From the NCBI RefSeq assembly GCF_016894245.1, contig NZ_CP069792.1:1922001-1986000 (forward strand): a stretch of DNA of 64,000 nt, read 5' to 3'. The first letter of the stretch is position 1, and each line of letters starts with the position of its first letter. The notes under the pieces were generated by a model, which saw only the letters and a list, made by a program, of their open reading frames with translations, was not told the origin of the DNA and did not search any database. Made by a program: the position numbers and the translations under genes. Origin of the DNA: Corynebacterium kroppenstedtii (GTDB lineage: Bacteria > Actinomycetota > Actinomycetes > Mycobacteriales > Mycobacteriaceae). Below are positions 16 through 11,511 of this stretch, in pieces.

Positions 16-513
16 TATTGGGTGCTTTATAGTGCGAATCCTAAGTCTAGCGCGCGTATGAATGGCACATGCTTCCGACAAACTGAGAAGTCGCGGGTGA
101 TTTTCTCAACACTGTGAGGAAAACTCTTCGAATAATTACCCCCTAAAAAGGCTGCGAAAAGGGCGCGAAAACAGGTTTTTTACGCCACATTGTTAACAGG
201 TGCCACACTAATCGCACGGTTACGCGAGCGTTTTCTTTTCAGTTCGATCGAGTGCGAAGTGATGGGGAGGCACGGGGCAGAAAAATGTTGACTTAACACC
301 AAGTAAGCTTTACCTTCATATGAGGATAGATGCATAACCTTGGCTGTCGTTTGCATGACTATGCATGGGAAGTGATAGCCATGGAAAACTACCACCTGAT
401 GCACCAGCGTTCCCTAACGACGCCCTCCCTTACACCGGATCGGTTAACGGGACATCGTCGTGATCGCAGCGCCGGGCGAGTTCGAAATGCCCCCTCGATT
501 ACCTGGAGAGTTC
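16..513. other. non-coding region upstream of the surface-protein gene
   Basis: No convincing gene is seen here; the short open frames have no recognisable product. The region should carry the promoter of the surface-protein gene. A TTGACT hexamer at 288-293 could be a -35 element, but no good -10 hexamer follows at 16-18 bases (TACCTT at 311 is the best). A weakly symmetric, DtxR-like stretch overlaps it and is listed separately. Confidence 0.5.
299..328. promoter_or_regulatory. weak DtxR-like / imperfect palindrome operator candidate
   Basis: Positions 299-317 match the 19-base corynebacterial DtxR consensus at 10 positions, with the right half TTTACCTT the better part. Positions 311-328 form an imperfect palindrome centred on CATATG, with 7 of 9 arm positions paired. 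The location just downstream of a TTGACT hexamer suits a repressor site for the surface-protein gene. The match is too weak to stand alone. Confidence 0.25.
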
Positions 514-2958
514 ATGCTTCCCACCGGAGATCACTCCGAGACCCACGCACCCAGTGGCTCACGCAACACGAGTAAGAAAAAGCATGGTCGTACCGCGGCT
601 CGTGCCCTCGTTGCCTCCTTGTCAACGGTGTCTCTCATTGGGATGGGTTCAGCTGCTGCCCCTGCTGCGTCGGCAGTTGATTTGTCTTCGTTGAGCGACG
701 CGATCAATGACTTGGGATTCCCGGGATCGCCTGATCTTGGCCGATTCCTCAATAGTGGTGGGGGAGATGAACAATCCCAATCACCGACGCTGACTCTCGA
801 TAAAGATAAAGACATCAGTGGTGGCGATACTCTCAAAGCGACGGGTAAGGGTTACAAGCCTGGTGAATCTATTTACGTCACCCAGACAATCGAAAAGCCC
901 GCGTCCGGATATCCAAAGACTTACGGCAAAGCGGTCAAGGTAAAAGCCGATGACCAGGGTAATTTCACGACCGACTTGACCGTCGATACCAAGTTTAGGG
1001 ACGTCGACTGCACCACCACCCAGTGCTATGTCGCGTCATTCACCGCATTCCCGAAGCTCTTTGACCGCTCCCAGGACGCGTGGACACCCATTAGTTTCCG
1101 TAACGGAAGCCCGGTCACTGTTGACACCGAGGGCGGTCACTACGGAGATGGTGGCAGTGATAACAGCAATTCCGGCCAGGATAATGGCGGCAATTCCCAG
1201 CCGAATTCGGGATCCCTGGGCAGTACGTCAAGCAGTGGAGCGACTGTCTCAGTCAATAAAACCACTGATCTCAATCCGAGCGGAGATACTGTTCGAGTTG
1301 AAGGTAAAGGGTTTAAAACTGATGGGCCTGGCATTTATGTAGGTATCGCCCAGGACGACCAGTTCAGTACCACTAATCCCGACGCCTTTGGCCCCGATAC
1401 GAAGTGGGTCTCGAAGAGCAAGGGGAATCTGAACGACGATGGTTCCTTCTCCATCGATTTGCCCGTCAGCTCGACCTTCGGTAGTGCGAACTGTAAAGAC
1501 AACCACTGCTCAATCTATACGTTGGCTGCACACGGCTCTTCAGATAGAAGCCAGGACACAGCAACGCCGGTCTCCTTTAAAGGTGGGGTAGCTAAGAAGG
1601 AAGATGGAGCTGTGACGCCCCCCGCTACATCCGGTGACGGGGCAGCGACGGGTGGAAATAACAACAGCCAGGCTGCTCCCGTCGCGAACCCGGGCGGAAC
1701 CGCACAGTCTAATAACGGAAACTCAGGATCCGCTGCCCCGCAGGGAGGTGCACCTGCCCAACCGGCACCGGCGCCCACCGGGGCACATTCCTCGAGTGGC
1801 GCGGCAGTCACATTGTCAAAGACTCAAAATCTTAACCCGAGTGGAGACACGATCCGGGTTAGCGGCCAAGGGTTCAAGACCAGCGGGAATGGCGTTTACG
1901 TCGGGATTGCTCAGCAAGATCAATTCAGCACAACTAATGCTGATGTTTTCGGCCCCGGAACGGTATGGGTCTCTAATCAAAAGGGCAACCTCAATGCTGA
2001 CGGATCCTTTTCTGTTGATCTTCCCGTGTCAGCAACATTCGGAAGCGCGAATTGCTTGACGAACGCGTGCGCTGTATACACCTTCGCCGCTCATGGATCC
2101 AGCGACCGCAGCCAAGATACGGCGACACCGGTCAGCTTTGCGGGTGGAGTTGCTGCATCAAGTGCACAGCAAGCAGCGCAATCAGTTGCATCGGGTGTCA
2201 GCCGGAGTGGTGGCAGTTCGGGTTCGGGTAGCTCAGGCGGCGGATATGGCCTCAGCCAAGCCTCTGGTGCCAGTGGCACGTCCGGTCAGTCACGCAGCGG
2301 AGCGCGAGTTTCGGTATCACGAACAACTATTTCGCCGACTGGAAAGACTCCCATCACAGTGACCGGACAAGGCTTCAAGACTGGTGGCAACGGCGTTTAT
2401 GTCGGGGTAGCCGAAAAGTCGAAGTTCTCATTCACGGACGCTTCTGTCTTCGGAGCGACTAACTGGGTGCGGCCACAGCAGATTTCTTCAAACGGATCTT
2501 TCAGTACCACGCTGAACATCGAGCCGATTTTTGATGGTGGTAACTGCATTAAGAACCAGTGCGCTATCTTCACCTTTGCAGCACACGGTTCGACAGACCG
2601 GAGCCAAGACACGGTGACAGACATTACTGTTACCGGAACCCAGAAGGAAAAAGAGTCTGCGGTGAAAGCGGCCGAGAAGAAGGCCGAGGAAAAGAAGAAG
2701 GCACAAGAAGCGCGGAAGAAAGCGCGCGAAGCTAAGAAAAAGAACAAGAACTCTAAAGGTTCCAAAGACGCCGACGGTAACCAAGCCATCGAATCCGAAA
2801 ACACCAGTTCAGACCACGGATGGCTTTACGGAATTATCATAGGCATCCTTGGCACACTCGCCATAGTGTTTGCTGCGCTATTCGGCATCGAAAAGCGGAG
2901 GAATTCTGCCACCCATCAGCCGAATTCGTCGAATGATGACTCTGTAGACAATGAATAG
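514..2958 (+). CDS. secreted, membrane-anchored surface protein with four neocarzinostatin-like domains
   Basis: The ATG at 514 is chosen because GGAGAG lies at 505-510; in-frame GTG 460 and ATG 487 are alternatives. Residues 1-54 form a signal peptide with a KKK-containing n-region, a hydrophobic core and an A-x-A cleavage site. Four beta-rich domains follow (about 91-195, 243-355, 430-542 and 597-706), joined by Gly/Ser/Pro/Ala linkers. Each has a G-x-G-[FY] turn, a C-x4-C pair and a D-R-S-Q-D motif, as in the neocarzinostatin (Ig-like) fold. A Lys/Glu-rich segment (about 710-750) leads to a transmembrane helix (about 770-792) and a short charged tail, so the C-terminus anchors it in the membrane; there is no LPxTG. 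It converges on hmuTUV, where known corynebacteria have htaA, but no HtaA-type domain was recognised. Heme binding is inference only. Confidence 0.85.
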   Translation: MLPTGDHSETHAPSGSRNTSKKKHGRTAARALVASLSTVSLIGMGSAAAPAASAVDLSSLSDAINDLGFPGSPDLGRFLNSGGGDEQSQSPTLTLDKDKDISGGDTLKATGKGYKPGESIYVTQTIEKPASGYPKTYGKAVKVKADDQGNFTTDLTVDTKFRDVDCTTTQCYVASFTAFPKLFDRSQDAWTPISFRNGSPVTVDTEGGHYGDGGSDNSNSGQDNGGNSQPNSGSLGSTSSSGATVSVNKTTDLNPSGDTVRVEGKGFKTDGPGIYVGIAQDDQFSTTNPDAFGPDTKWVSKSKGNLNDDGSFSIDLPVSSTFGSANCKDNHCSIYTLAAHGSSDRSQDTATPVSFKGGVAKKEDGAVTPPATSGDGAATGGNNNSQAAPVANPGGTAQSNNGNSGSAAPQGGAPAQPAPAPTGAHSSSGAAVTLSKTQNLNPSGDTIRVSGQGFKTSGNGVYVGIAQQDQFSTTNADVFGPGTVWVSNQKGNLNADGSFSVDLPVSATFGSANCLTNACAVYTFAAHGSSDRSQDTATPVSFAGGVAASSAQQAAQSVASGVSRSGGSSGSGSSGGGYGLSQASGASGTSGQSRSGARVSVSRTTISPTGKTPITVTGQGFKTGGNGVYVGVAEKSKFSFTDASVFGATNWVRPQQISSNGSFSTTLNIEPIFDGGNCIKNQCAIFTFAAHGSTDRSQDTVTDITVTGTQKEKESAVKAAEKKAEEKKKAQEARKKAREAKKKNKNSKGSKDADGNQAIESENTSSDHGWLYGIIIGILGTLAIVFAALFGIEKRRNSATHQPNSSNDDSVDNE
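784..2631 (+). repeat. four in-gene copies of a ~110-residue domain (A-D)
   Basis: The copies lie at 784-1098 (A), 1240-1578 (B), 1801-2139 (C) and 2302-2631 (D). B and C are nearly the same over their whole length, including N-P-S-G-D-T and A-A-H-G-S-S-D-R-S-Q-D-T. D is more diverged and A most. The C-x4-C pair is present in all four. B, C and D share a Tyr (I/V-Y-V-G) and a His (A-A-H-G). A lacks the His, reading A-F-P-K-L-F-D-R-S-Q-D. The pattern suggests a recent B/C duplication. Confidence 0.9.
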
Positions 2959-2970
2959 CTAAGTCGCCCT

Positions 2971-3043
2971 CCATGGGATAGCCCCATGGATAGCAGTGGC
3001 TTATGATTTAGCCCCATCTCATGGTTTTGATCGTGAGGTGGGG
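2971..3043 (+). terminator. hairpins ending the surface-protein transcript
   Basis: A 7-bp hairpin (2971-2977 with 2983-2989) is followed by a stronger one in which CCCCATCTCA (3012-3021) pairs with TGAGGTGGGG (3034-3043), with one G-U pair, then TTCATTT. It lies between convergent genes, so it may serve both strands, although the T-run is on the plus side. Confidence 0.6.
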
Positions 3044-3145
3044 TTCATTTAAACCTCCCATCTCACGGCAATGACGCTCCCAGCAATCACGAACTGCGGA
3101 ATGGTTGCGGGAGGGATAGAAGCACTAGCCCGTGAAGCCGGGGGC

Positions 3146-3913
3146 TTAGTGTGTCTTTCTCAGCGGGACAACGATGGGGGAGTCATCGGGTCCGCGGAAA
3201 ACTTGCATCGGACAGCCGTAAATCTTGCTCAGCAACTTTGGTTGTAATACATCATCGGGATTCCCGGATATAGCAACTTGACCGTGCTCAAGCACTATGA
3301 TTCGGTCACTCCACGCTGCGGCGAGAGATAAATCATGGAGGACTATCCCCACTGCGGCACCGTTCTTAGCCCGGTGTCGGCAAATCTTCATGACATCTTC
3401 TTGATGACGAATATCGAGTGCGGCTGTTGGTTCATCAAGGAGAATCAACGGAGTATTTTGTGTGAGAACTCGAGCAAGAGATACTCGAGCTTTCTCACCG
3501 CCAGAGAGATGATGGAATTCGCGAGAAAGAAACCCGCGAACGCCAGTCTCATCGATCGCGGTATTCATCGCCTCAGCTGCTTCGGTGGCAGTTTCGGTTT
3601 TAGCCCAGGGCGCGCGCCCCATCGCAATGGTTTCGCCGGCAGTGAAGGAAAAACCGACGGTGTTGGATTGCGTCAATACTGATCGTAGTCGGGCTAAATC
3701 AGGCGCAGATGTCGTCGATACGTTGTGATCTTTTATCCGAACTGTTCCTGAATCAGGCGTGAGATCGCCTGCAGCTACGGCCAATAACGTTGATTTACCA
3801 GCACCATTAGGCCCGACGATAGCGACAACTTCTCCTTGGCCAATCGATACGTTAACTGCATCAAGAACGACGCGTGAACCTCGGCGCAAGGACACTGAGT
3901 CAAGAGATAGCAT
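3146..3913 (-). CDS. hmuV: hemin ABC transporter, ATP-binding protein HmuV
   Basis: ATPase subunit that powers hemin import with HmuU and HmuT at the cytoplasmic membrane. The 255-residue protein has Walker A G-P-N-G-A-G-K-S (34-41), signature L-S-G-G-E (136-140), Walker B L-I-L-L-D-E-P (156-162) and an H-loop V-L-H-D. Its length is usual for the FepC/HmuV family. The ATG at 3913 is chosen because AGGAAGG lies 6 bases upstream; an earlier start would extend into the hmuU stop region. It is the last gene of hmuT-hmuU-hmuV, 38 bases after hmuU. An imperfect hairpin (3123-3131 with 3142-3151) overlaps its stop codon. Heme rather than siderophore as substrate is inferred from the HmuT similarity. 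Confidence 0.9.
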   Translation of the reverse strand: MLSLDSVSLRRGSRVVLDAVNVSIGQGEVVAIVGPNGAGKSTLLAVAAGDLTPDSGTVRIKDHNVSTTSAPDLARLRSVLTQSNTVGFSFTAGETIAMGRAPWAKTETATEAAEAMNTAIDETGVRGFLSREFHHLSGGEKARVSLARVLTQNTPLILLDEPTAALDIRHQEDVMKICRHRAKNGAAVGIVLHDLSLAAAWSDRIIVLEHGQVAISGNPDDVLQPKLLSKIYGCPMQVFRGPDDSPIVVPLRKTH

Positions 3914-3951
3914 GCACAACCTTCCTAACAGATCATTCTTCGTCGCAGACG

Positions 3952-5043
3952 CTAGCGCCATGCACCAGAGTGACCTCGAGAACGTCGGAGTAGGTAGAAG
4001 AACACGGGGCCACCAATAAGTGCTGTCAGCATCCCTAGTGGTAGGTCAGCACCGCGAATAGCCGTTCGGGCGACAACGTCGGCAATGGTTAATGTCAATG
4101 CACCGCCCAATGCCGAGGCAGGTATAAGAACGCGGTGTCCTGGCCCAACTATGAGTCGGAGAGCGTGAGGGACAACAAGTCCAACAAATGAAATGATCCC
4201 CGTAAAGGCCACTCCTACCGCAACGAGCAGAGAAACAATAACGACGATCGACGCGCGAAGACGCTCAACGTTAACACCTAGGTGGTGTGCCTGACTTTCA
4301 CCCAAGGAAAGTAAATCGAGGGGTTTAGCCAGAGTCCAGGCCAGGAGGCTGACCGGAATAGTTACAACGCAAATAATTCCCGCTGCTGTCCACGACGAGC
4401 CGGCAATAGACCCCATTTGCCAAAACACGATCTGATCACGAGCCGCGTTATCCGCAATAAAGGTAAGGAAAGCAATAATACCGCCGGCCATGGCATTAGT
4501 TGCAACACCCGTCAGAATAAGAGTGACAACTTCGCTCCGGCCGTTCCGTCGAGACGCAAAATATATAAATGCGGTGGTACACAGACCTGCTATGAAAGCT
4601 GCGAGCGTGACCATCCATGGGCCGAGCCCTTGATGAGCTGCGGTTGTTGATGCGCCCAGCGCGATGGCTGCAGAAGCTCCGACGGCTGCTCCAGAGGAAA
4701 CACCGATGATGCCCGGCTCAGCCAGTGGATTAGAAAAAACGCCTTGCAGAAGGACACCTGATACGCCCAAACCTGCGCCAACAATGGCCCCTACGACGAT
4801 TCGCGGGAAGCGAACGTACCATAAGGCGGCTTCTGCATTAGCGTGATCGGGGCCGTCTAACCAGGATATTCTCATGGAATGGAGCAATGACCCCAGCACT
4901 TGGCTGGGAGTTGTATCCACTTGTCCGGCGGTGGCTGACCACACCAAGCTAATGGCGAGGAGTGCAATGATTGTTGGAAAGAAAATGATCGTCGCTACAA
5001 CTCGCTTTTGATGGAACGGCTGTGTGTGAGAGCGTTTCGTCAT
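3952..5043 (-). CDS. hmuU: hemin ABC transporter permease HmuU
   Basis: FecCD-family permease of 363 residues, the usual size, with about nine or ten hydrophobic helices. The family segments G-V-L-L-Q-G-V-F-S-N-P-L-A-E-P-G (about 95-111) and F-V-G-L-V-V-P-H (about 285-292, the coupling loop region) are intact. It forms the membrane channel for hemin passed on by HmuT and is driven by HmuV. The ATG at 5043 overlaps the hmuT stop (ATGA), so the two are translationally coupled. Family assignment is certain; substrate is inferred from the neighbours. Confidence 0.92.
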   Translation of the reverse strand: MTKRSHTQPFHQKRVVATIIFFPTIIALLAISLVWSATAGQVDTTPSQVLGSLLHSMRISWLDGPDHANAEAALWYVRFPRIVVGAIVGAGLGVSGVLLQGVFSNPLAEPGIIGVSSGAAVGASAAIALGASTTAAHQGLGPWMVTLAAFIAGLCTTAFIYFASRRNGRSEVVTLILTGVATNAMAGGIIAFLTFIADNAARDQIVFWQMGSIAGSSWTAAGIICVVTIPVSLLAWTLAKPLDLLSLGESQAHHLGVNVERLRASIVVIVSLLVAVGVAFTGIISFVGLVVPHALRLIVGPGHRVLIPASALGGALTLTIADVVARTAIRGADLPLGMLTALIGGPVFFYLLRRSRGHSGAWR

Positions 5044-6206
5044 GATCGACGCTCCAGAGCCTCAGGCGTAGCGCTTGAGGACGAGGAGGACTGATGCTCG
5101 CCATAAAGAGCCTGAGCCATTGCTGTGATCACATTGCCCGCGTCCGGACCGAACGATAACAGGTGTGAGTCGGGGACAGTCAGCACGCTGTCATGGGCCC
5201 CGGCTGGGGTTTGATCAAACCCGGGGAGCTTATGGAGGCCGTCCAAGCCGCCAATAGACTCGAGCCCCTCTTTCATCACGATGATCGTATCGGGAGCAGC
5301 CTTGACCAATGCTTCGGATGTCAGGTTAGTAAAGGCCTTGTCTAACCCAAGCCCCTCACCGGCGTCGACGCCACCTAGCGATGTAATGAGGTCAGGTGCC
5401 CCAGACTTCGGTCCGGCGATCATTGAAACATTTGTCCCACGCAAGTAGAGCATGATCATGCGACGATGATCAGACTTTGCTTGGGCAGCTTTACTCGCTG
5501 ACTTAATACCGTCTCGCACTTTGTGAGCTGCTTGATTACCCGCGTCCGGATCGCCTAAGGCACGTCCTATCTCCTTCATGAGGTTGTCCGCGTTGTCAAG
5601 ATTTCTGTCTCGATCAGTACGTATAACGGTGATGCCGGATTGTTCCAATTGGCGGAAAACGGATTGGGGCCCAATTGTGCCGTCGGTGAAAATGACGTCG
5701 GGGTTGAGGTCTAGAACTGCCTCCGCGTTAATAGAGTGACCACCCGGTGTTACTAATGGCAGCTTCTGAGCCGACGGAAAATCAGTGGAGATATCTCTCC
5801 CGACGATTTTATCGCCCATGCCCAAGGACCACAGAGAGGCGGCCATAGCCCCAGATCGGTCGAGGCCGAGAATGCGATCAGCCTTTTTAACCGTAACTTT
5901 CTTGCCCTGCGACGCCGTTTCTGCGGGGAGATTCGGTTTAATCTGCGCAAGGGTCTGGGGATCACCAGTGTTCAACGAGGCATTGACAAGTCCCTGCGCA
6001 TGGACAGGACGCGCTGAACTATCAGACTGATTAGACGATGATTCTCCGTCGCGTGACGGGACGTCACATGCGGTGGTGGTTAAACCAATGACGAGTATGA
6101 CGCCCATGAGCATGGTTAAGGATTTGAAGGGGCGATAGCGAGCCTGAAAAGGGCCAGCCGATAAGAAACCTGAGGGGTAATGCAAGGTCACAGCTTTCAC
6201 GGACAA
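5040..6206 (-). CDS. hmuT: hemin-binding lipoprotein HmuT (ABC transporter)
   Basis: Substrate-binding lipoprotein (periplasmic-binding family 2) that hands hemin to HmuUV. From the TTG at 6206 it has 388 residues. A hydrophobic helix (32-44) precedes the lipobox Cys47 (T-T-A-C), slightly atypical because -3 is Thr. The family segment G-G-H-S-I-N-A-E-A (155-163) contains His157, a good candidate for the axial heme ligand known in corynebacterial HmuT; the partner Tyr is not assigned with confidence. The start is uncertain: GTG at 6200 and 6191 or ATG at 6113 are alternatives, and none has a clear Shine-Dalgarno sequence. The last bases overlap hmuU. Upstream DtxR-like sites suggest iron repression. 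Confidence 0.9.
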   Translation of the reverse strand: MSVKAVTLHYPSGFLSAGPFQARYRPFKSLTMLMGVILVIGLTTTACDVPSRDGESSSNQSDSSARPVHAQGLVNASLNTGDPQTLAQIKPNLPAETASQGKKVTVKKADRILGLDRSGAMAASLWSLGMGDKIVGRDISTDFPSAQKLPLVTPGGHSINAEAVLDLNPDVIFTDGTIGPQSVFRQLEQSGITVIRTDRDRNLDNADNLMKEIGRALGDPDAGNQAAHKVRDGIKSASKAAQAKSDHRRMIMLYLRGTNVSMIAGPKSGAPDLITSLGGVDAGEGLGLDKAFTNLTSEALVKAAPDTIIVMKEGLESIGGLDGLHKLPGFDQTPAGAHDSVLTVPDSHLLSFGPDAGNVITAMAQALYGEHQSSSSSSATPEALERRS

Positions 6207-6272
6207 CGATCGGCACAGCGATCGTGGGAGAGTCGAACTTTAGACAAAACTGGAAGCCTAGGCCTCCACGTC

Positions 6273-6307
6273 GAGGTTTTAGCTTACCTATGGTTAGGGT
6301 AGAGGAA
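6273..6307. promoter_or_regulatory. two overlapping DtxR-box candidates before hmuT
   Basis: Positions 6273-6291 match the DtxR consensus at 11 of 19 positions, with an intact right half GCTTACCTA. Positions 6289-6307 match at 12 of 19, with the left core GGTTAGG. Both lie 67-101 bases upstream of the hmuT start and 158-192 bases before the divergent lipoprotein start. The matches were counted by eye, and DtxR control of hmuT is established in related species. Confidence 0.55.
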
Positions 6308-6411
6308 AAGGCCACATCACCCTTATGTAGCAAGGGGGTGTTGACGTGTGCGTTAAGATGCACAGAAGGTGGCCAAATTATTTGCCTTAGCCGACGGTTA
6401 GACTTTTCGTG

Positions 6412-6432
6412 TATAAGGTTAACCACGGTACA
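6412..6432 (+). promoter_or_regulatory. -10 box and DtxR-like half-site before the lipoprotein gene
   Basis: TATAAG at 6412-6417, with TG directly upstream, is a plausible -10 element 48 bases before the chosen ATG. It overlaps TAAGGTTA (6414-6421), an almost perfect left half of a DtxR box; the right half is poor (9 of 19 overall for 6414-6432). Confidence 0.35.
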
Positions 6433-6464
6433 CTTTTATGAACCCTACGAGGGAGCCCTCCGCG

Positions 6465-7091
6465 ATGAAACACAACACTCATTCCACTCGACCGGCACTA
6501 ACAATGGGTATGCGGGTTGGTGCACTTGTCGTTACTCTGGGGTGCACACTCGGAGTTGCCGCGTGTTCCAATGACAATGACTCGAATGATTCAGCATCCG
6601 GTACAGCTTCCGCCGCCAAGTCTAGTGGCCAGTCCACCAAATCAAGCGACACCGAGGATAAAGACTCGAACGGTAATTCCGATGACAATGCGAGCACGGA
6701 AGTCACCGGGACCGATGACATCGTTGTCATGAAAGTGTCGCAAGCAAAGGATTTGCGGGACGGGCAGCAAGTCACTGTAGATGTTAAGGACGCGGACCCT
6801 GACATGGGGTATTACCTTGCATTGTGTGCAAAAGAGCAAACCGGGGATGTTCCCGATTGCTTGGGGGCTCATGGTGATCCGAATGCACAGAAATGGATCT
6901 CAAATGAAAATGAGGACGGAGCCATTCCGGACGATGGCTCGTTCAGTGAAGAGATCACCGTCAACCAGAAGAATGTCAGTACTGGTGGAGATGAAATCGA
7001 CTGTAAAACCCAAGAATGTGTCATTAAGCTCTTTGGCGACCACAGCAATGGGTTCGTCGATGTTGCGGATATTCCGGTCACTTTTCAGTGA
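6465..7091 (+). CDS. small lipoprotein with one neocarzinostatin-like domain
   Basis: The ATG at 6465 is chosen over 6438 because GGAG lies 9 bases upstream. The 208-residue protein has a signal peptide and the lipobox V-A-A-C, then about 45 residues rich in Asp, Ser and Asn, then one domain. That domain has two Cys pairs, C-x10-C and C-x4-C, close to the disulfide spacing of neocarzinostatin. It also has a Tyr-Tyr pair before the first Cys and a G-D-H-S segment where repeats B-D of the 514-2958 protein have A-A-H-G. It is divergent from hmuT and shares its regulatory region. A role as a membrane-bound relay between the surface protein and HmuT is inference; a binding function is not proven. 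Confidence 0.8.
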   Translation: MKHNTHSTRPALTMGMRVGALVVTLGCTLGVAACSNDNDSNDSASGTASAAKSSGQSTKSSDTEDKDSNGNSDDNASTEVTGTDDIVVMKVSQAKDLRDGQQVTVDVKDADPDMGYYLALCAKEQTGDVPDCLGAHGDPNAQKWISNENEDGAIPDDGSFSEEITVNQKNVSTGGDEIDCKTQECVIKLFGDHSNGFVDVADIPVTFQ

Positions 7092-7121
7092 TGGATATGT
7101 GAACTTCCAGTAACAATAGGG

Positions 7122-7158
7122 CAGGAGGGTGGGGCGCCCGAGAGCACACACCATCCTG
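7122..7158. terminator. hairpin between lipoprotein gene and dtxR
   Basis: CAGGAGGGTG (7122-7131) pairs with CACCATCCTG (7149-7158), 9 of 10 positions. The genes on either side converge, so it may act in both directions. There is no strong T-run, so efficiency is doubtful. Confidence 0.45.
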
Positions 7159-7225
7159 TTAGGTCTCTACTTCTATTAGGCTTCCACTAACTTGAGCTAG
7201 ATTAGGCTCGGCCGAACTCAATTCC

Positions 7226-7900
7226 TTATTCAACGACGATAGCGTGGGCCAAGCTGACAGGGATAGCGACTGTCTCATCACCAACCGAGACCGTAGCATT
7301 ACGGTCGTTGACAACAGCGTGAATTTTCTTCCCCGGAACAATTCCGGCGTTTCTTAGGTTTGCCATCACAGCGGAATCAGACTGGAGTACTTCGTTAAAC
7401 ATGAGGATCTTCGCGGTGACGAGCTCATTGCGAGCAAGATCTGTAAGCCGCTTACCCTCCATTTGCGGTTCACTGCCATTGACTCCGAGCTGTGGAAGCC
7501 CCGGAATCGGCGTTCCGAAGGGGCTGTGAGTTGGCGCATCGAGAACATCGTAAAGACGACGCTCAACGTCGTCGCTCATCACGTGTTCCCAACGACAGGC
7601 TTCTTCATGCACTTTCTCTTTGGGAAGCTTGAGGGTAGTAGAAAGCAAACACTCTGCTAAACGGTGTTTACGCATAACCGCGATTGCAACCTGGCGGCCC
7701 GCGTCAGTAAGTTCAAGGTGACGGTCTTCCGCGACGCGGAGTAACCCGTCACGTTCCATGCGAGCTACCGTTTGGCTGACCGTGGGGCCTGATTGTTCCA
7801 AGCGCTCCGCGATGCGCGCGCGTAGGGGAGTGATACCTTCTTCATCCAACTCATAAATAGTCCGGAGATACATCTCGGTGGTATCGACGAGATCCTTCAT
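7226..7900 (-). CDS. dtxR: iron-dependent repressor DtxR
   Basis: Master iron-responsive repressor; with Fe(II) bound it represses iron and heme uptake genes. The start at 7900 (M-K-D-L-V-D) fits the family and has GAGAAAGG 8 bases upstream, giving 224 residues. The winged-helix DNA-binding part (residues 1-70) is almost the same as C. diphtheriae DtxR. Metal ligands of both sites are present: His79, Glu83 and His98 (ancillary site), and Met10, Cys102, Glu105 and His106 (primary site). A C-terminal SH3-like domain follows a Pro-rich linker. It lies downstream of sigB on the same strand, separated by a hairpin. Its proximity to the hmu genes matches their likely control. Confidence 0.97.
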   Translation of the reverse strand: MKDLVDTTEMYLRTIYELDEEGITPLRARIAERLEQSGPTVSQTVARMERDGLLRVAEDRHLELTDAGRQVAIAVMRKHRLAECLLSTTLKLPKEKVHEEACRWEHVMSDDVERRLYDVLDAPTHSPFGTPIPGLPQLGVNGSEPQMEGKRLTDLARNELVTAKILMFNEVLQSDSAVMANLRNAGIVPGKKIHAVVNDRNATVSVGDETVAIPVSLAHAIVVE

Positions 7901-7974
7901 GATGGACGCCTTTCTCAAGTAGTTCGATAAATAAGACGACGATACTGGTTTTTACTTTACCCTTAACATAAGAA

Positions 7975-7997
7975 CCCCGGGAAATATTTCCCCGGGG
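7975..7997 (-). terminator. strong palindrome between sigB and dtxR
   Basis: CCCCGGG (7975-7981) pairs with CCCGGGG (7991-7997), and the arms continue through AAATATTT. On the minus strand it follows sigB and is followed by TTCTTAT; on the plus strand it is followed by CGTTTTT. It probably ends the sigB transcript and isolates dtxR. Confidence 0.7.
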
Positions 7998-8070
7998 CGT
8001 TTTTATCCACTTTTACGGACAATAAATGTGGATGTGCTAAAGCCAAAATGCAAGGTTAGCATCCCTGCAC

Positions 8071-9051
8071 TTAAGCGTAAGACCGTAACTTATCCGCACG
8101 ATCGCCTTTTCGCAGCTTTGCCATGACCTCGCGTTCAATTTGGCGAACTCTCTCACGTGAGAGCCCAAATTCGCGTCCAATCTGGTCAAGAGTTCGTGGT
8201 ACACCATCGTCGAGACCAAAGCGGAGACGAATGACGTCTTGCTCTCTTTTCTCCAAGGTCGCCAAAACGGTCCGAATGTCCGAATGACGTAGAGACGCTA
8301 CGACGGCTTCTTCCGCGTCGGTTGCTTCGGAGTCCTCAATGAAATCTCCTAATGGTGCTTCTTCATCTGTTCCGACCGGCATATCCAAGCTGACCGGATC
8401 GCGGGACTGCTTCAGAAGGAGATCGATCTTTGATTCATCGATACCAGACTCGTCCGCGAGCTCTTCATTGGTAGCTTCCCTCCCCAAGTGCTGGTACATC
8501 TCGCGCTTAATGCGGGAGAGCTTGTTTACTTGCTCGACGAGGTGGACGGGAAGACGAATTGTTCGGGACTGGTCGGCCATCCCGCGTGTAATGGCTTGTC
8601 GAATCCACCATGTCGCATACGTCGAAAACTTAAAGCCCTTGGTGTAATCGAACTTTTCGACGGCGCGGATGAGGCCCAAGTTCCCCTCCTGAATGAGATC
8701 GAGAAGAGGCATGCCGCGCCCTGTGTAGCGCTTCGCTAAAGACACGACGAGTCGGAGGTTGGCCTCCAGAAGGTGAGCTCGCGCAGCACGTCCATCTTTA
8801 GCGATAGCCTTGAGATCCCGTTTTTTCGAAGGAGTGAACTGTTCGTCAGAATCAAGGAGATGTTGCGCGTAGAGGCCAGCTTCAATCCGTTGCGAAAGCT
8901 CAACTTCGTCTTCCGCGTTAAGAAGTGCGGTACGGCCAATTCCGTTGAGGTAAACCCGAACTAAATCAGCTGAAGGATTTTCATTATTGTTGGCCCGCCG
9001 GCCAGGATCACCATTAACTTCGGTTGTCGTACTGACGTGCGCTTCGTCCAT
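8071..9051 (-). CDS. sigB: RNA polymerase sigma factor SigB
   Basis: Group 2, primary-like sigma factor for stress and transition-phase promoters. The ATG at 9051 is chosen because AAGGAG lies 7 bases upstream, giving 326 residues, close to C. glutamicum SigB. Region 1.2 (about 28-60), region 2 with [10 protein letters not shown] and the -10-recognising segment [12 protein letters not shown], region 3, and the region 4 helix-turn-helix ending in R-E-R-V-R-Q-I-E are all intact. It lacks the long Lys/acidic extension of the nearby SigA. It is next to dtxR, as in other corynebacteria and mycobacteria. Confidence 0.95.
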
Positions 9052-9436
9052 GTGCTGGCTCCTTAACTGCGCTCGGTGTCGCGATAGCGGTGCAATGTGA
9101 CGGCCCGTTGGGACGGAGTGGCGAGGTGGACGTATACCACTGGTTGCCACCTAATTAACGTCCGCACGGAATGGCGGGCTGTCACGATCGCATTCAGTTA
9201 GTCCAACGCATGGGCCGGTAAAAAGGTTCCATAAGCACTTTTTCACGTGACCTTGGGCCAGCGTTGGAAGGGAATAGGTATTGTACGTGGCGGGGATTTA
9301 AGTCACATGAGTGTGATTTAATCCCGCAAAGGTGCTGGTAAGCGTACTGTGTGCCGAAATTAACTCCCACAAGGTTAGCTACCCCTATTTAGGGGCCATT
9401 GCCTATAAGGTCGTTCTTCCATGAAGGACTCGACGA
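9052..9436. other. sigB upstream region with two palindromes
   Basis: No gene is seen in these 385 bases. Positions 9293-9325 form an imperfect 33-base palindrome with arms GGGATT and AATCCC around TCACA-TGAG-TGTGA. Positions 9382-9395 (CCCCTATTTAGGGG) are a perfect palindrome that may end the dtd transcript. Positions 9370-9388 match the DtxR consensus at 11 of 19. The sigB promoter must lie here, but no hexamer pair stands out. Confidence 0.5.
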
Positions 9437-9913
9437 CTAGGAGCGAGCTCCACTCGGAATATCGACAAGAACGGTGAACGGACCATCGTTGACCGAGTCG
9501 ACGGCCATGTAGGCACCGAATACGCCCGTCTCGACGGTAAGGCCACGCTTGCGGAGTTCCTCGACGCATGTGTTAAAGGTGGGCTCAGCCTCGGTCGGTT
9601 TCGCCGCAGCAGACCAGGACGGGCGTCGGCCATGGGAGGTATCACCCATCAGTGTGAACTGTGACACAACAAGCAACGGCGCATCGACGTCAAGCGCAGA
9701 TACCTCAGTCGGGCGTCCCTCAGGCGTCGAACCCTCGAAGATCCGAAGACGAGCCAGTTTTTCTGCCATAGCCTGAGCGGTGGCTGAGGTATCTCCTGTG
9801 GCTACGCCGATGAGGACAAGAAGCCCTCCCACATCTGAGTCCGGGATTGATCCAACCACGGAATCTTGAACAACAACGGACGCGGAACGAACACGCGTGA
9901 CTACTGCTTTCAC
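9437..9913 (-). CDS. dtd: D-aminoacyl-tRNA deacylase
   Basis: Removes D-amino acids (and glycine mis-charged on tRNA-Ala) from tRNA; the enzyme is a cytosolic dimer. The GTG at 9913 is chosen: it has GGAG 7 bases upstream and gives the family N-terminus V-K-A-V-V-T-R-V, 158 residues. The active-site motif S-Q-F-T-L is present. The Gly-cisPro motif appears as N-D-G-P-F-T, with Phe where many bacteria have Val. Its GTG overlaps the stop of the upstream methyltransferase gene (GTGA), so translation is coupled. Confidence 0.93.
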   Translation of the reverse strand: MKAVVTRVRSASVVVQDSVVGSIPDSDVGGLLVLIGVATGDTSATAQAMAEKLARLRIFEGSTPEGRPTEVSALDVDAPLLVVSQFTLMGDTSHGRRPSWSAAAKPTEAEPTFNTCVEELRKRGLTVETGVFGAYMAVDSVNDGPFTVLVDIPSGARS

Positions 9914-11511
9914 TGAAGATCTCCAGGTATGACAAGCCCGTGGCGAATGGCGTCGACCAGTATGGGTAAAAACTCGTCGGCCAGGTTCTGGGCTGGTGTA
10001 GTTGGGGTAACGAGTTCGGCAATCTCGCACACATCGCGGGCTGACAGTCCATTCGGATCCAAACCTCGAAAGATACGTAAGACGTTCTCGTCGATTTCGT
10101 GGGAAAAGCGTGGTCCGTCGGTTCGGGTGATCCGCGTAACAACGTCGGTAAAGGTGGAGTCTGCCTCTGCCTCAGCGAGAGAAACCTTTTCAAGCGCTAA
10201 GCCTGGCCTGACACTAAATCTGCTGTCCAGGATTTCACCTGGAGTACGTGCATCAAGCCATGCGCAGCGTCGGAAGTACTCCTCAATTTCCGGGCCCAAA
10301 GGATCTGTGTACGGTTGAGTGAATTCCTCACACACAACTTCTGAGTTCTCCTCAGGATCAATCGGAGTCATCGCGATAAAACCAATACCGATTCCCGTCA
10401 CGCCGGCGTGATCCATATAGTCAATCCACACCTCTGATTGCGATCGACCGAGGTCACCGCGGGGATCAAGAGACTCATCCTTGATCCACGTGCCCACATA
10501 ATGCAGGGGGTCGACACAATCCCGCTCCAACACCCATGCACGATAACCGTGGTCCGGAATCCACGACGCGACCCGCGCTTGCCAGGCCTGCGCATCAGAA
10601 TGAATCCACGCCCCCAGCACGCATGCTTGGCCATGAACAGCCAGGTGCTCCGGAATGCCGCGAATGAGCTTAGCGGTAGCGCCATCGAGCTCCATTCCAG
10701 AATCCCGATAAACGTGGCGTAACGTCGGCGGCCCCACCACAAAAGGCGGATTCGCGATGATGCGATCAAATGTCTGATGACGGACGGGTTCGAACCATGA
10801 GCCCTGTTTGAAATCAATCTGTGTACGTGGCTCGGAAGTTAAAACAATCTCGGCCGCAGCGCACGTAGCTTCAGCGAAGAGGAGGGCACGCTGGCTCACG
10901 TCCGTCGCAGTGATCGAGTCCGACCGCCCCCATTGGCCCATAATTTGGACACCTGATCCGGTCCCTAAGTCCAAAACTGAGCCGACGTGTGATGTCCCCG
11001 TTGCTTGAAGGAGTGACCGCGATGCGGCACCCACGCCCACGACATGTTCGGGGTCTGCTGAATGATCAACCATCGAGGCATCGGCGTCGCTAAAAATGAG
11101 GTAGTCCGAGCGTTCCGACGGGCTGATGTGCAGTGGGCGGATATCGATTGCGGTGCGAAAGCGCTCTCGATCCGTATCGGGTTCGCGGACGATAACGCCT
11201 GCGGAGACAGCGTCGACGAAGAAATTGTCGCCGAAAGTGTCGACGAACACGTCGCGCGGCTGTGGTTCGCGAAGGATGAGTAACCGCACTGCCCGCGCAA
11301 GGCGTCGATCATCCTCATTCGAGGCTTGGCGCTCAAAGCGATGACAGGCAAAGGACACAGCGGCGGGTTCGTGCCGATCCAAGGCTGCTAGGCCATCATC
11401 GCCGAGGACACGGTGTAAGCCCGACGAAGAATAGCCGAGCTCAGTAAGCCGTTTCGCGAGCGATGCGGCGTAACGTGGCAGTTCGGAGATATCAGGTAGC
11501 GTGCTCACCAT
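9910..11511 (-). CDS. class I SAM-dependent methyltransferase, HemK/PrmC-like
   Basis: Cytosolic methyltransferase of 533 residues with a ~160-residue N-terminal region lacking a recognised motif. A Rossmann core follows with motif I D-L-G-T-G-S-G (181-187) and motif IV N-P-P-F (254-257). N-P-P-F is typical of enzymes that methylate a planar amide or amine nitrogen (glutamine in release factors, or adenine/guanine in nucleic acid). The C-terminal 150 residues are not recognised. The substrate is unknown; because its stop overlaps dtd, a translation-related substrate is reasonable but only inferred. The ATG at 11511 lacks a strong Shine-Dalgarno sequence. Confidence 0.8.
   Translation of the reverse strand: MVSTLPDISELPRYAASLAKRLTELGYSSSGLHRVLGDDGLAALDRHEPAAVSFACHRFERQASNEDDRRLARAVRLLILREPQPRDVFVDTFGDNFFVDAVSAGVIVREPDTDRERFRTAIDIRPLHISPSERSDYLIFSDADASMVDHSADPEHVVGVGAASRSLLQATGTSHVGSVLDLGTGSGVQIMGQWGRSDSITATDVSQRALLFAEATCAAAEIVLTSEPRTQIDFKQGSWFEPVRHQTFDRIIANPPFVVGPPTLRHVYRDSGMELDGATAKLIRGIPEHLAVHGQACVLGAWIHSDAQAWQARVASWIPDHGYRAWVLERDCVDPLHYVGTWIKDESLDPRGDLGRSQSEVWIDYMDHAGVTGIGIGFIAMTPIDPEENSEVVCEEFTQPYTDPLGPEIEEYFRRCAWLDARTPGEILDSRFSVRPGLALEKVSLAEAEADSTFTDVVTRITRTDGPRFSHEIDENVLRIFRGLDPNGLSARDVCEIAELVTPTTPAQNLADEFLPILVDAIRHGLVIPGDLQ

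Follow-up and report, generated by a model that had tools for sequence, protein, structure and literature searches.

We analyzed a 64,000-nt stretch of the Corynebacterium kroppenstedtii genome (hereafter, the window; G000:C1:1922001-1986000, genome G000 being one contig of 2.48 Mb), in which genes for two proteins, predicted to be exported, of the neocarzinostatin (NCS) family flank hmuTUV, the genes of a predicted heme importer. The gene order is surface protein (+), hmuV, hmuU and hmuT (-), lipoprotein (+), and dtxR (-), and the layout from the surface protein gene (514-2958) through hmuTUV to the lipoprotein gene (6465-7091) was as given in a first-pass annotation made from the sequence alone (Table 1). 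An alternative GTG start at position 460 is possible for the surface protein gene, and the true hmuT start is probably downstream of the listed TTG start. The nearest named relatives of the lipoprotein are those of C. pseudokroppenstedtii (92% identity) and C. parakroppenstedtii (90%), which suggests that the window comes from the C. kroppenstedtii complex.

Table 1 Features of the NCS-hmuTUV locus, in window positions.
Feature	Position	Strand	Remarks
DtxR-like site 5' of surface protein gene	299..317		14/19 consensus positions; 6.3 bits; 21/300 random stretches as good
Surface protein, 814 aa	514..2958	+	Open reading frame; PF00960 45.3 bits
NCS repeat 1 of surface protein	784..1116	+	Closest repeat to true NCS; without the His
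NCS repeat 2 of surface protein	1237..1596	+	75% identity with repeat 3
NCS repeat 3 of surface protein	1798..2160	+	
NCS repeat 4 of surface protein	2299..2649	+	
C-terminal transmembrane helix of surface protein	2818..2889	+	By eye from translation
hmuV, heme ABC transporter ATPase	3146..3961	-	NF010068 288.5 bits (cut-off 261)
hmuU, permease	3952..5043	-	PF01032 302 bits; nearest solved chains are hemin permeases 5b57 and 4g1u
hmuT, predicted heme-binding lipoprotein	5040..6206	-	Best solved match 5az3
Weak DtxR-like site, hmuT/lipoprotein intergenic region	6273..6291		8.4 bits; matched by 5/300 random stretches
NCS/ThiX-family lipoprotein, 208 aa, lipobox Cys34	6465..7091	+	PF00960 29.2 bits; 7qhm_M (ThiX) E 3.7e-24
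NCS domain of lipoprotein	6732..7088	+	Tyr116, Tyr117, Cys121-Cys132, Trp144, Cys180-Cys185, Asp192, His193
dtxR, iron-dependent repressor, next gene	7226..7918	-	NF053665 293.4 bits (cut-off 290)

Both flanking proteins passed the PF00960 gathering score of 25 bits, and they were the only PF00960 matches in the genome; that both flank one transporter points to more than chance. The first-pass annotation had proposed that they share one domain type, and profile comparison agreed, placing the lipoprotein domain and all four repeats of the surface protein in a single family (hhalign probability 96.6%, E 4.8e-10, 110 columns). It had also named the neocarzinostatin fold, and the predicted folds of both proteins match neocarzinostatin, including its beta-sandwich. 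NCS family proteins are chromophore carriers with two conserved disulfide-forming Cys pairs. The lipoprotein has both pairs (Cys121/Cys132, C-x10-C; Cys180/Cys185, C-x4-C), and each surface repeat holds only the second, C-x4-C, all as first described. The G-x-G turn ascribed to both proteins was present in the four surface repeats and absent from the lipoprotein, and the conserved His was found in repeats 2–4 and the lipoprotein (His193) and not in repeat 1.

The surface protein comprises a Sec-type signal peptide (by eye), four NCS repeats, low-complexity linkers, a charged stalk, a C-terminal transmembrane helix, and a basic tail; no LPxTG motif was seen in it. Its predicted model has four folded blocks separated by linkers with a predicted local distance difference test (pLDDT) score <50. 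Matches of this model to arrestin and complement chains (root-mean-square deviation mostly ~20) were interpreted as reflecting serial sandwich domains. Across the surface protein family, Tyr and His are retained in the last two repeats (30/30 aligned rows).

The transporter between the two proteins is, judged by homology, likely a heme importer. HmuV exceeds the cut-off of the heme ABC ATPase equivalog NF010068 (288.5 vs 261 bits), and the best solved match of HmuT is C. glutamicum HmuT (5az3, E 1.2e-47). The heme site of HmuT consists of His, Tyr, and Arg, as named in PMC4926363, and His157, Tyr254, and Arg256 of the window protein correspond to C. glutamicum His141, Tyr240, and Arg242. Among 36 HmuT rows from sampled loci (G149 counted twice, as L051 and L111), Tyr and Arg were present in all and His in 35, with one gap in a split frame. 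HmuU also scores well against BtuC models, but cobalamin transport was rejected because all three heme residues are present in HmuT and solved heme-binding proteins rank first among its relatives.

A search for the HtaA domain (PF04213) gave no match in the whole window genome and detected the C. glutamicum positive control, in line with what the first-pass annotation had seen locally. The CR domains of HtaA-type receptors are beta-sandwiches with an axial Tyr, plus a helper His in HtaA (PMC12494546), and the parallel with the Tyr/His pair of the NCS domains is suggestive only. An origin of the NCS domains as diverged CR domains was rejected, given no profile similarity (hhalign probability 0.2% and 0.4%). 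CR-domain chains were not among the matches listed in the structure comparisons, which is no evidence by itself. NEAT domains, also mentioned in PMC12494546, gave no row at E ≤ 1 for either flanking protein in the Pfam scan.

To see how far the pairing of NCS and hmu genes extends, we profiled 181 Corynebacterium genomes, detecting PF00960 in 46, HtaA in 84, HmuU (E ≤ 1e-70) in 102, and the lipoprotein in 57; the PF00960 model does not detect the family member ThiX of C. glutamicum, so its counts are lower bounds for the family. The NCS lipoprotein gene adjoins hmuU in 18 of the 102 HmuU genomes (the window and 15 loci mapped gene by gene, with G077 and G123 judged by coordinates). HtaA was detected in one of these 18 genomes, as against 79 of the remaining 84. 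The sole overlap, G017, has two hmu loci, one NCS-type (L034) and one HtaA-type (L092), and offers a natural comparison. Five HmuU genomes have neither an NCS neighbor nor HtaA (G039, G081, G110, G113, and G133); in G113 the NCS gene sits at a contig end, next to leuB. Across the 15 mapped loci other than the window, the divergent NCS-hmuTUV pair neighbors leuB in ten, rlmB in three, dtxR in one (L042, which shares this arrangement with the window), and none of these in one (L037), and hmuO was found in 13 of the 15.

Of the 181 genomes, 14 encode the surface protein, and 13 of these carriers are of the NCS-type lineage. That lineage includes C. sphenisci (G039), whose lipoprotein gene lies away from hmu, directly downstream of the surface protein gene (L045 and L046). 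Carriers of the surface protein include C. amycolatum-type and C. kroppenstedtii-type species (L044, L090, L091, and L181), which we take to lack mycolic acids.

Beyond the genus, PF00960 was detected in 42 of 251 genomes surveyed at the family level, 33 of them non-Corynebacterium, of which 29 were mapped (all except G188, G235, G251, and G361). Twelve mapped genomes encode a one-domain, lipoprotein-type NCS protein, its gene being divergent to hmuTUV in nine (seven with hmuO) and to hmuO alone in two. These 11 heme-linked genomes span six genera and include G256, with split frames. Linkage in Corynebacterium and six other genera indicates that the pairing is older than the genus and rules out the lipoprotein as a mere local oddity; the co-occurrence with hmuTUV that the first-pass annotation had called for was thus found in many other genomes. 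In NCBIfam searches at E ≤ 1e-5, no heme-specific name was over its cut-off for the other-genus HmuT, and none for its heme oxygenase.

The importer itself follows the same division. In the HmuT tree, a single 100/100 branch divides an NCS lineage (16 rows from Corynebacterium and eight from other genera) from 18 rows linked to HtaA, and the HmuU tree has the same split (26 vs 21 rows, the 21 including three loci of a third layout described below; 100/100). The 18 HtaA-linked rows are sampled loci, a subset of such genomes; the HmuT trees were built without L040, and the 100/100 tree also without L187 (split frames). The NCS lipoprotein is co-inherited with a distinct HmuT/HmuU lineage.

Iron control was profiled with a DtxR matrix built from eight known sites given in PMC524172. 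Of the linked intergenic regions in Corynebacterium, 11 of 15 contain a site of ≥11 bits. Such sites were also detected for nine of 13 NCS genes of other genera and for seven of ten surface protein genes from beyond the window complex (several of these near-identical, and one scoring 11.0 bits). For comparison, four of 34 genes of the unlinked ThiX set had one, as did 30 of 1500 random stretches of 270 nt. The searched lengths were unequal (155-478 nt for the linked intergenic regions; 270 and 410 nt for the other gene sets). In 13 of the 15 linked loci, at most four of 100 random same-length stretches of the same locus scored as well; the upstream region of L041 rests on a doubtful HmuT start.

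Conservation within the lipoprotein family was counted in 29 rows (28 heme-linked proteins and L045 of C. sphenisci; L177, L187, and L191 left out). Tyr116, both Cys pairs (29/29), Trp144, and Asp192 were invariant, and Tyr117 and His193 were each present in 28. In the 34 unlinked ThiX-type rows the counts were 34 for Tyr116, 33 for Tyr117, 28 for His193, 28 for Trp144, and 20 for Gln142.

Given these patterns, a link of the lipoprotein to heme use is strongly supported, and the replacement of HtaA-type receptors in heme uptake by NCS-family proteins is the best-supported reading. As relatives in seven genera keep the NCS gene beside heme genes, NCS proteins likely hand heme to the importer, and we consider it probable on balance that the two predicted exported proteins form a heme-capturing front end of HmuTUV in place of HtaA/HtaB. 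The wall-spanning four-repeat protein would take up heme outside the membrane, the lipid-anchored one-domain lipoprotein would carry it on to HmuT, and HmuUV would pump it inward. Heme may sit in the cleft equivalent to the NCS chromophore site, with the near-invariant Tyr (GYY) and His (DH) as candidate iron ligands. We infer direct heme binding, these ligands, the sequence of steps in the relay, and the part of the surface protein, whose presumed role in heme capture rests on the common domain, the common lineage, and the DtxR-type sites of its relatives.

Such a front end would resemble the HtaA/HtaB-HmuTUV systems of C. diphtheriae and C. glutamicum (PF04213 CR domains), in which anchored, exported repeat-domain proteins also adjoin hmuTUV, DtxR control is likely, and the HmuT heme residues are identical. 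It differs in that no CR domain was detected in the window genome, the NCS and CR profiles are dissimilar, and HmuT and HmuU are of a separate lineage. It would also work like the Isd/NEAT relay of Bacillota, from wall protein to lipoprotein to ABC importer, with the difference that the window proteins are of another family and gave no NEAT row.

Several observations weigh against NCS proteins as the heme receptors of HmuTUV. The window's own DtxR-like sites are weak (8.4 and 6.3 bits), and the matrix score of the one at 299..317 is not above chance. Besides surface repeat 1 without its His, exceptions occur among the linked proteins, with Tyr for His193 in L185 and Asn for Tyr117 in L178. The first-pass annotation had the two proteins bracket hmuTUV, which holds for the window, and missed that the surface protein adjoins hmuTUV in only four of its 14 carriers, all of the window's species complex; in one further carrier, G082, the contig with the surface protein gene also bears an HtaA-type hmu locus at a distance of ~12 kb. 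The four window-complex genomes (G000, G013, G077, and G123) gave no match to heme oxygenase (PF01126), while 6/6 other NCS-type genomes tested did; ferrochelatase is present in G000, and the window complex may use imported heme intact or break it down with a different enzyme. Outside the genus, the remaining one-domain genome, G376, has no heme gene on its 8.4-kb contig, and longer or tandem NCS proteins had no HmuT or HmuU match within 14-15 kb at any of 17 mapped loci (L162-L168, L173-L176, L179, L180, L188-L190, and L192), which argues against heme handling as a general role of NCS proteins of these forms. Overall, the observation of the first-pass annotation was confirmed in part and its heme-relay interpretation found partial support; it also missed the homology of the lipoprotein to ThiX, the source of a serious rival considered below.

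Family members were also found beside non-hmu FecCD importers, a further point against the heme-receptor reading: in G110, where the neighbor is a PF01497 binding protein without an NCBIfam name, in G031, and as a second gene in G039 (L082 and L083 in G110 and G031, ~5650-10450; L047 in G039, 4660-6420). This suggests a second ligand or a siderophore role for these lipoproteins, and the Protein Data Bank includes engineered NCS forms with testosterone hemisuccinate, so the NCS cleft can accept varied ligands. The NCS proteins of the window could bind a siderophore or some other iron-supply ligand, or serve as a docking site for a hemoprotein, with HmuT alone picking up heme. We regard this as unlikely, as three genes of this kind stand against heme linkage in 18 genomes of Corynebacterium and, among the 12 mapped from other genera, in 11 (nine of 12 with hmuO).

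The same family includes ThiX, which in C. glutamicum is a lipidated accessory subunit of the cytochrome bcc-aa3 supercomplex; its soluble domain is described as unresolved and its enzymatic activity as unknown (PMC8795186). The match of the lipoprotein to ThiX (7qhm_M) runs over the full length and includes the lipidated Cys (E 3.7e-24 alone and 5.1e-61 with the family profile, whose positions 23-189 align to 1-166 of the chain); the two proteins share both Cys pairs, GYY, W, and GDH-x2-GF. This homology, which also counts against a dedicated heme receptor, raises a serious rival to the relay: the lipoprotein could be a ThiX-type supercomplex subunit, with its link to heme genes reflecting heme supply to or assembly of cytochromes, not external uptake. 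In the NCS gene tree, however, the window protein falls outside the ThiX group, together with the proteins of other genera and that of G039 (98/88; 125 columns, 70 rows, short deep branches, root for drawing only). None of 34 mapped unlinked ThiX-type genes lies beside hmuTUV (ten are beside cysS), and DtxR-type sites are as scarce among them as noted above. Relatives in six other genera adjoin hmuO and/or hmuTUV, and in nine of the 12 genomes with one-domain proteins the NCS protein has, by eye, a C-terminal transmembrane helix in place of an N-terminal lipobox. The supercomplex membership reported in PMC8795186 is that of C. glutamicum ThiX. We judge this origin of the linkage improbable, slightly more so than another ligand.

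That the NCS domains are passive spacers, adhesion modules, or protection against enediyne-like antibiotics, with the neighborhood incidental, would fit the chromophore-carrying family, sub-threshold matches to the enediyne chromoprotein model, and the hmu-less longer or tandem loci, but it is very improbable given heme-gene linkage that recurs in seven genera and several surroundings and scores (49.8 and 34.5 bits) far below the 86-bit cut-off of equivalog NF040680. The window proteins differ from the neocarzinostatin, macromomycin, and C-1027 apoproteins (PF00960) in being membrane-anchored and heme-gene-linked, and in falling short of that cut-off.

Returning to NCS proteins as heme receptors, a wider form of this reading draws on the same tree, in which, under an assumed other-genus root, the unlinked ThiX proteins (that of C. 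glutamicum among them) branch from within the heme-linked ones; we treat this as a lead. The NCS fold would then be an ancestral heme-carrier domain of the bacterial family to which Corynebacterium belongs, with a DtxR-controlled NCS-HmuTUV-HmuO system in seven genera. ThiX would descend from it, having moved away from the heme locus, and might still carry heme near cytochromes. We put this forward tentatively, as possible but rather doubtful.

We found no report of an NCS-family protein in heme uptake among the open-licence papers searched, judged on titles and abstract openings. If true, the role proposed here would add a further Gram-positive heme-capture fold to the NEAT and CR domains, give the enediyne-carrier family a widespread nutritional role, and explain how HmuTUV is fed in corynebacteria without HtaA. 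ThiX, whose activity PMC8795186 calls unknown, would gain heme handling as a candidate function.

Two minor features of hmu loci were also observed. A third layout, hmuU-hmuV-hmuO, occurs in L101, L104, and L107 (G040, G116, and G161), with no recognized hmuT or HtaA within 10 kb, and its HmuU rows form their own 100/100 group. The NCS gene is tandemly duplicated beside hmuTUV in two genera (L036 in G056, 3816-5067; L178 in G183, 6594-7706).

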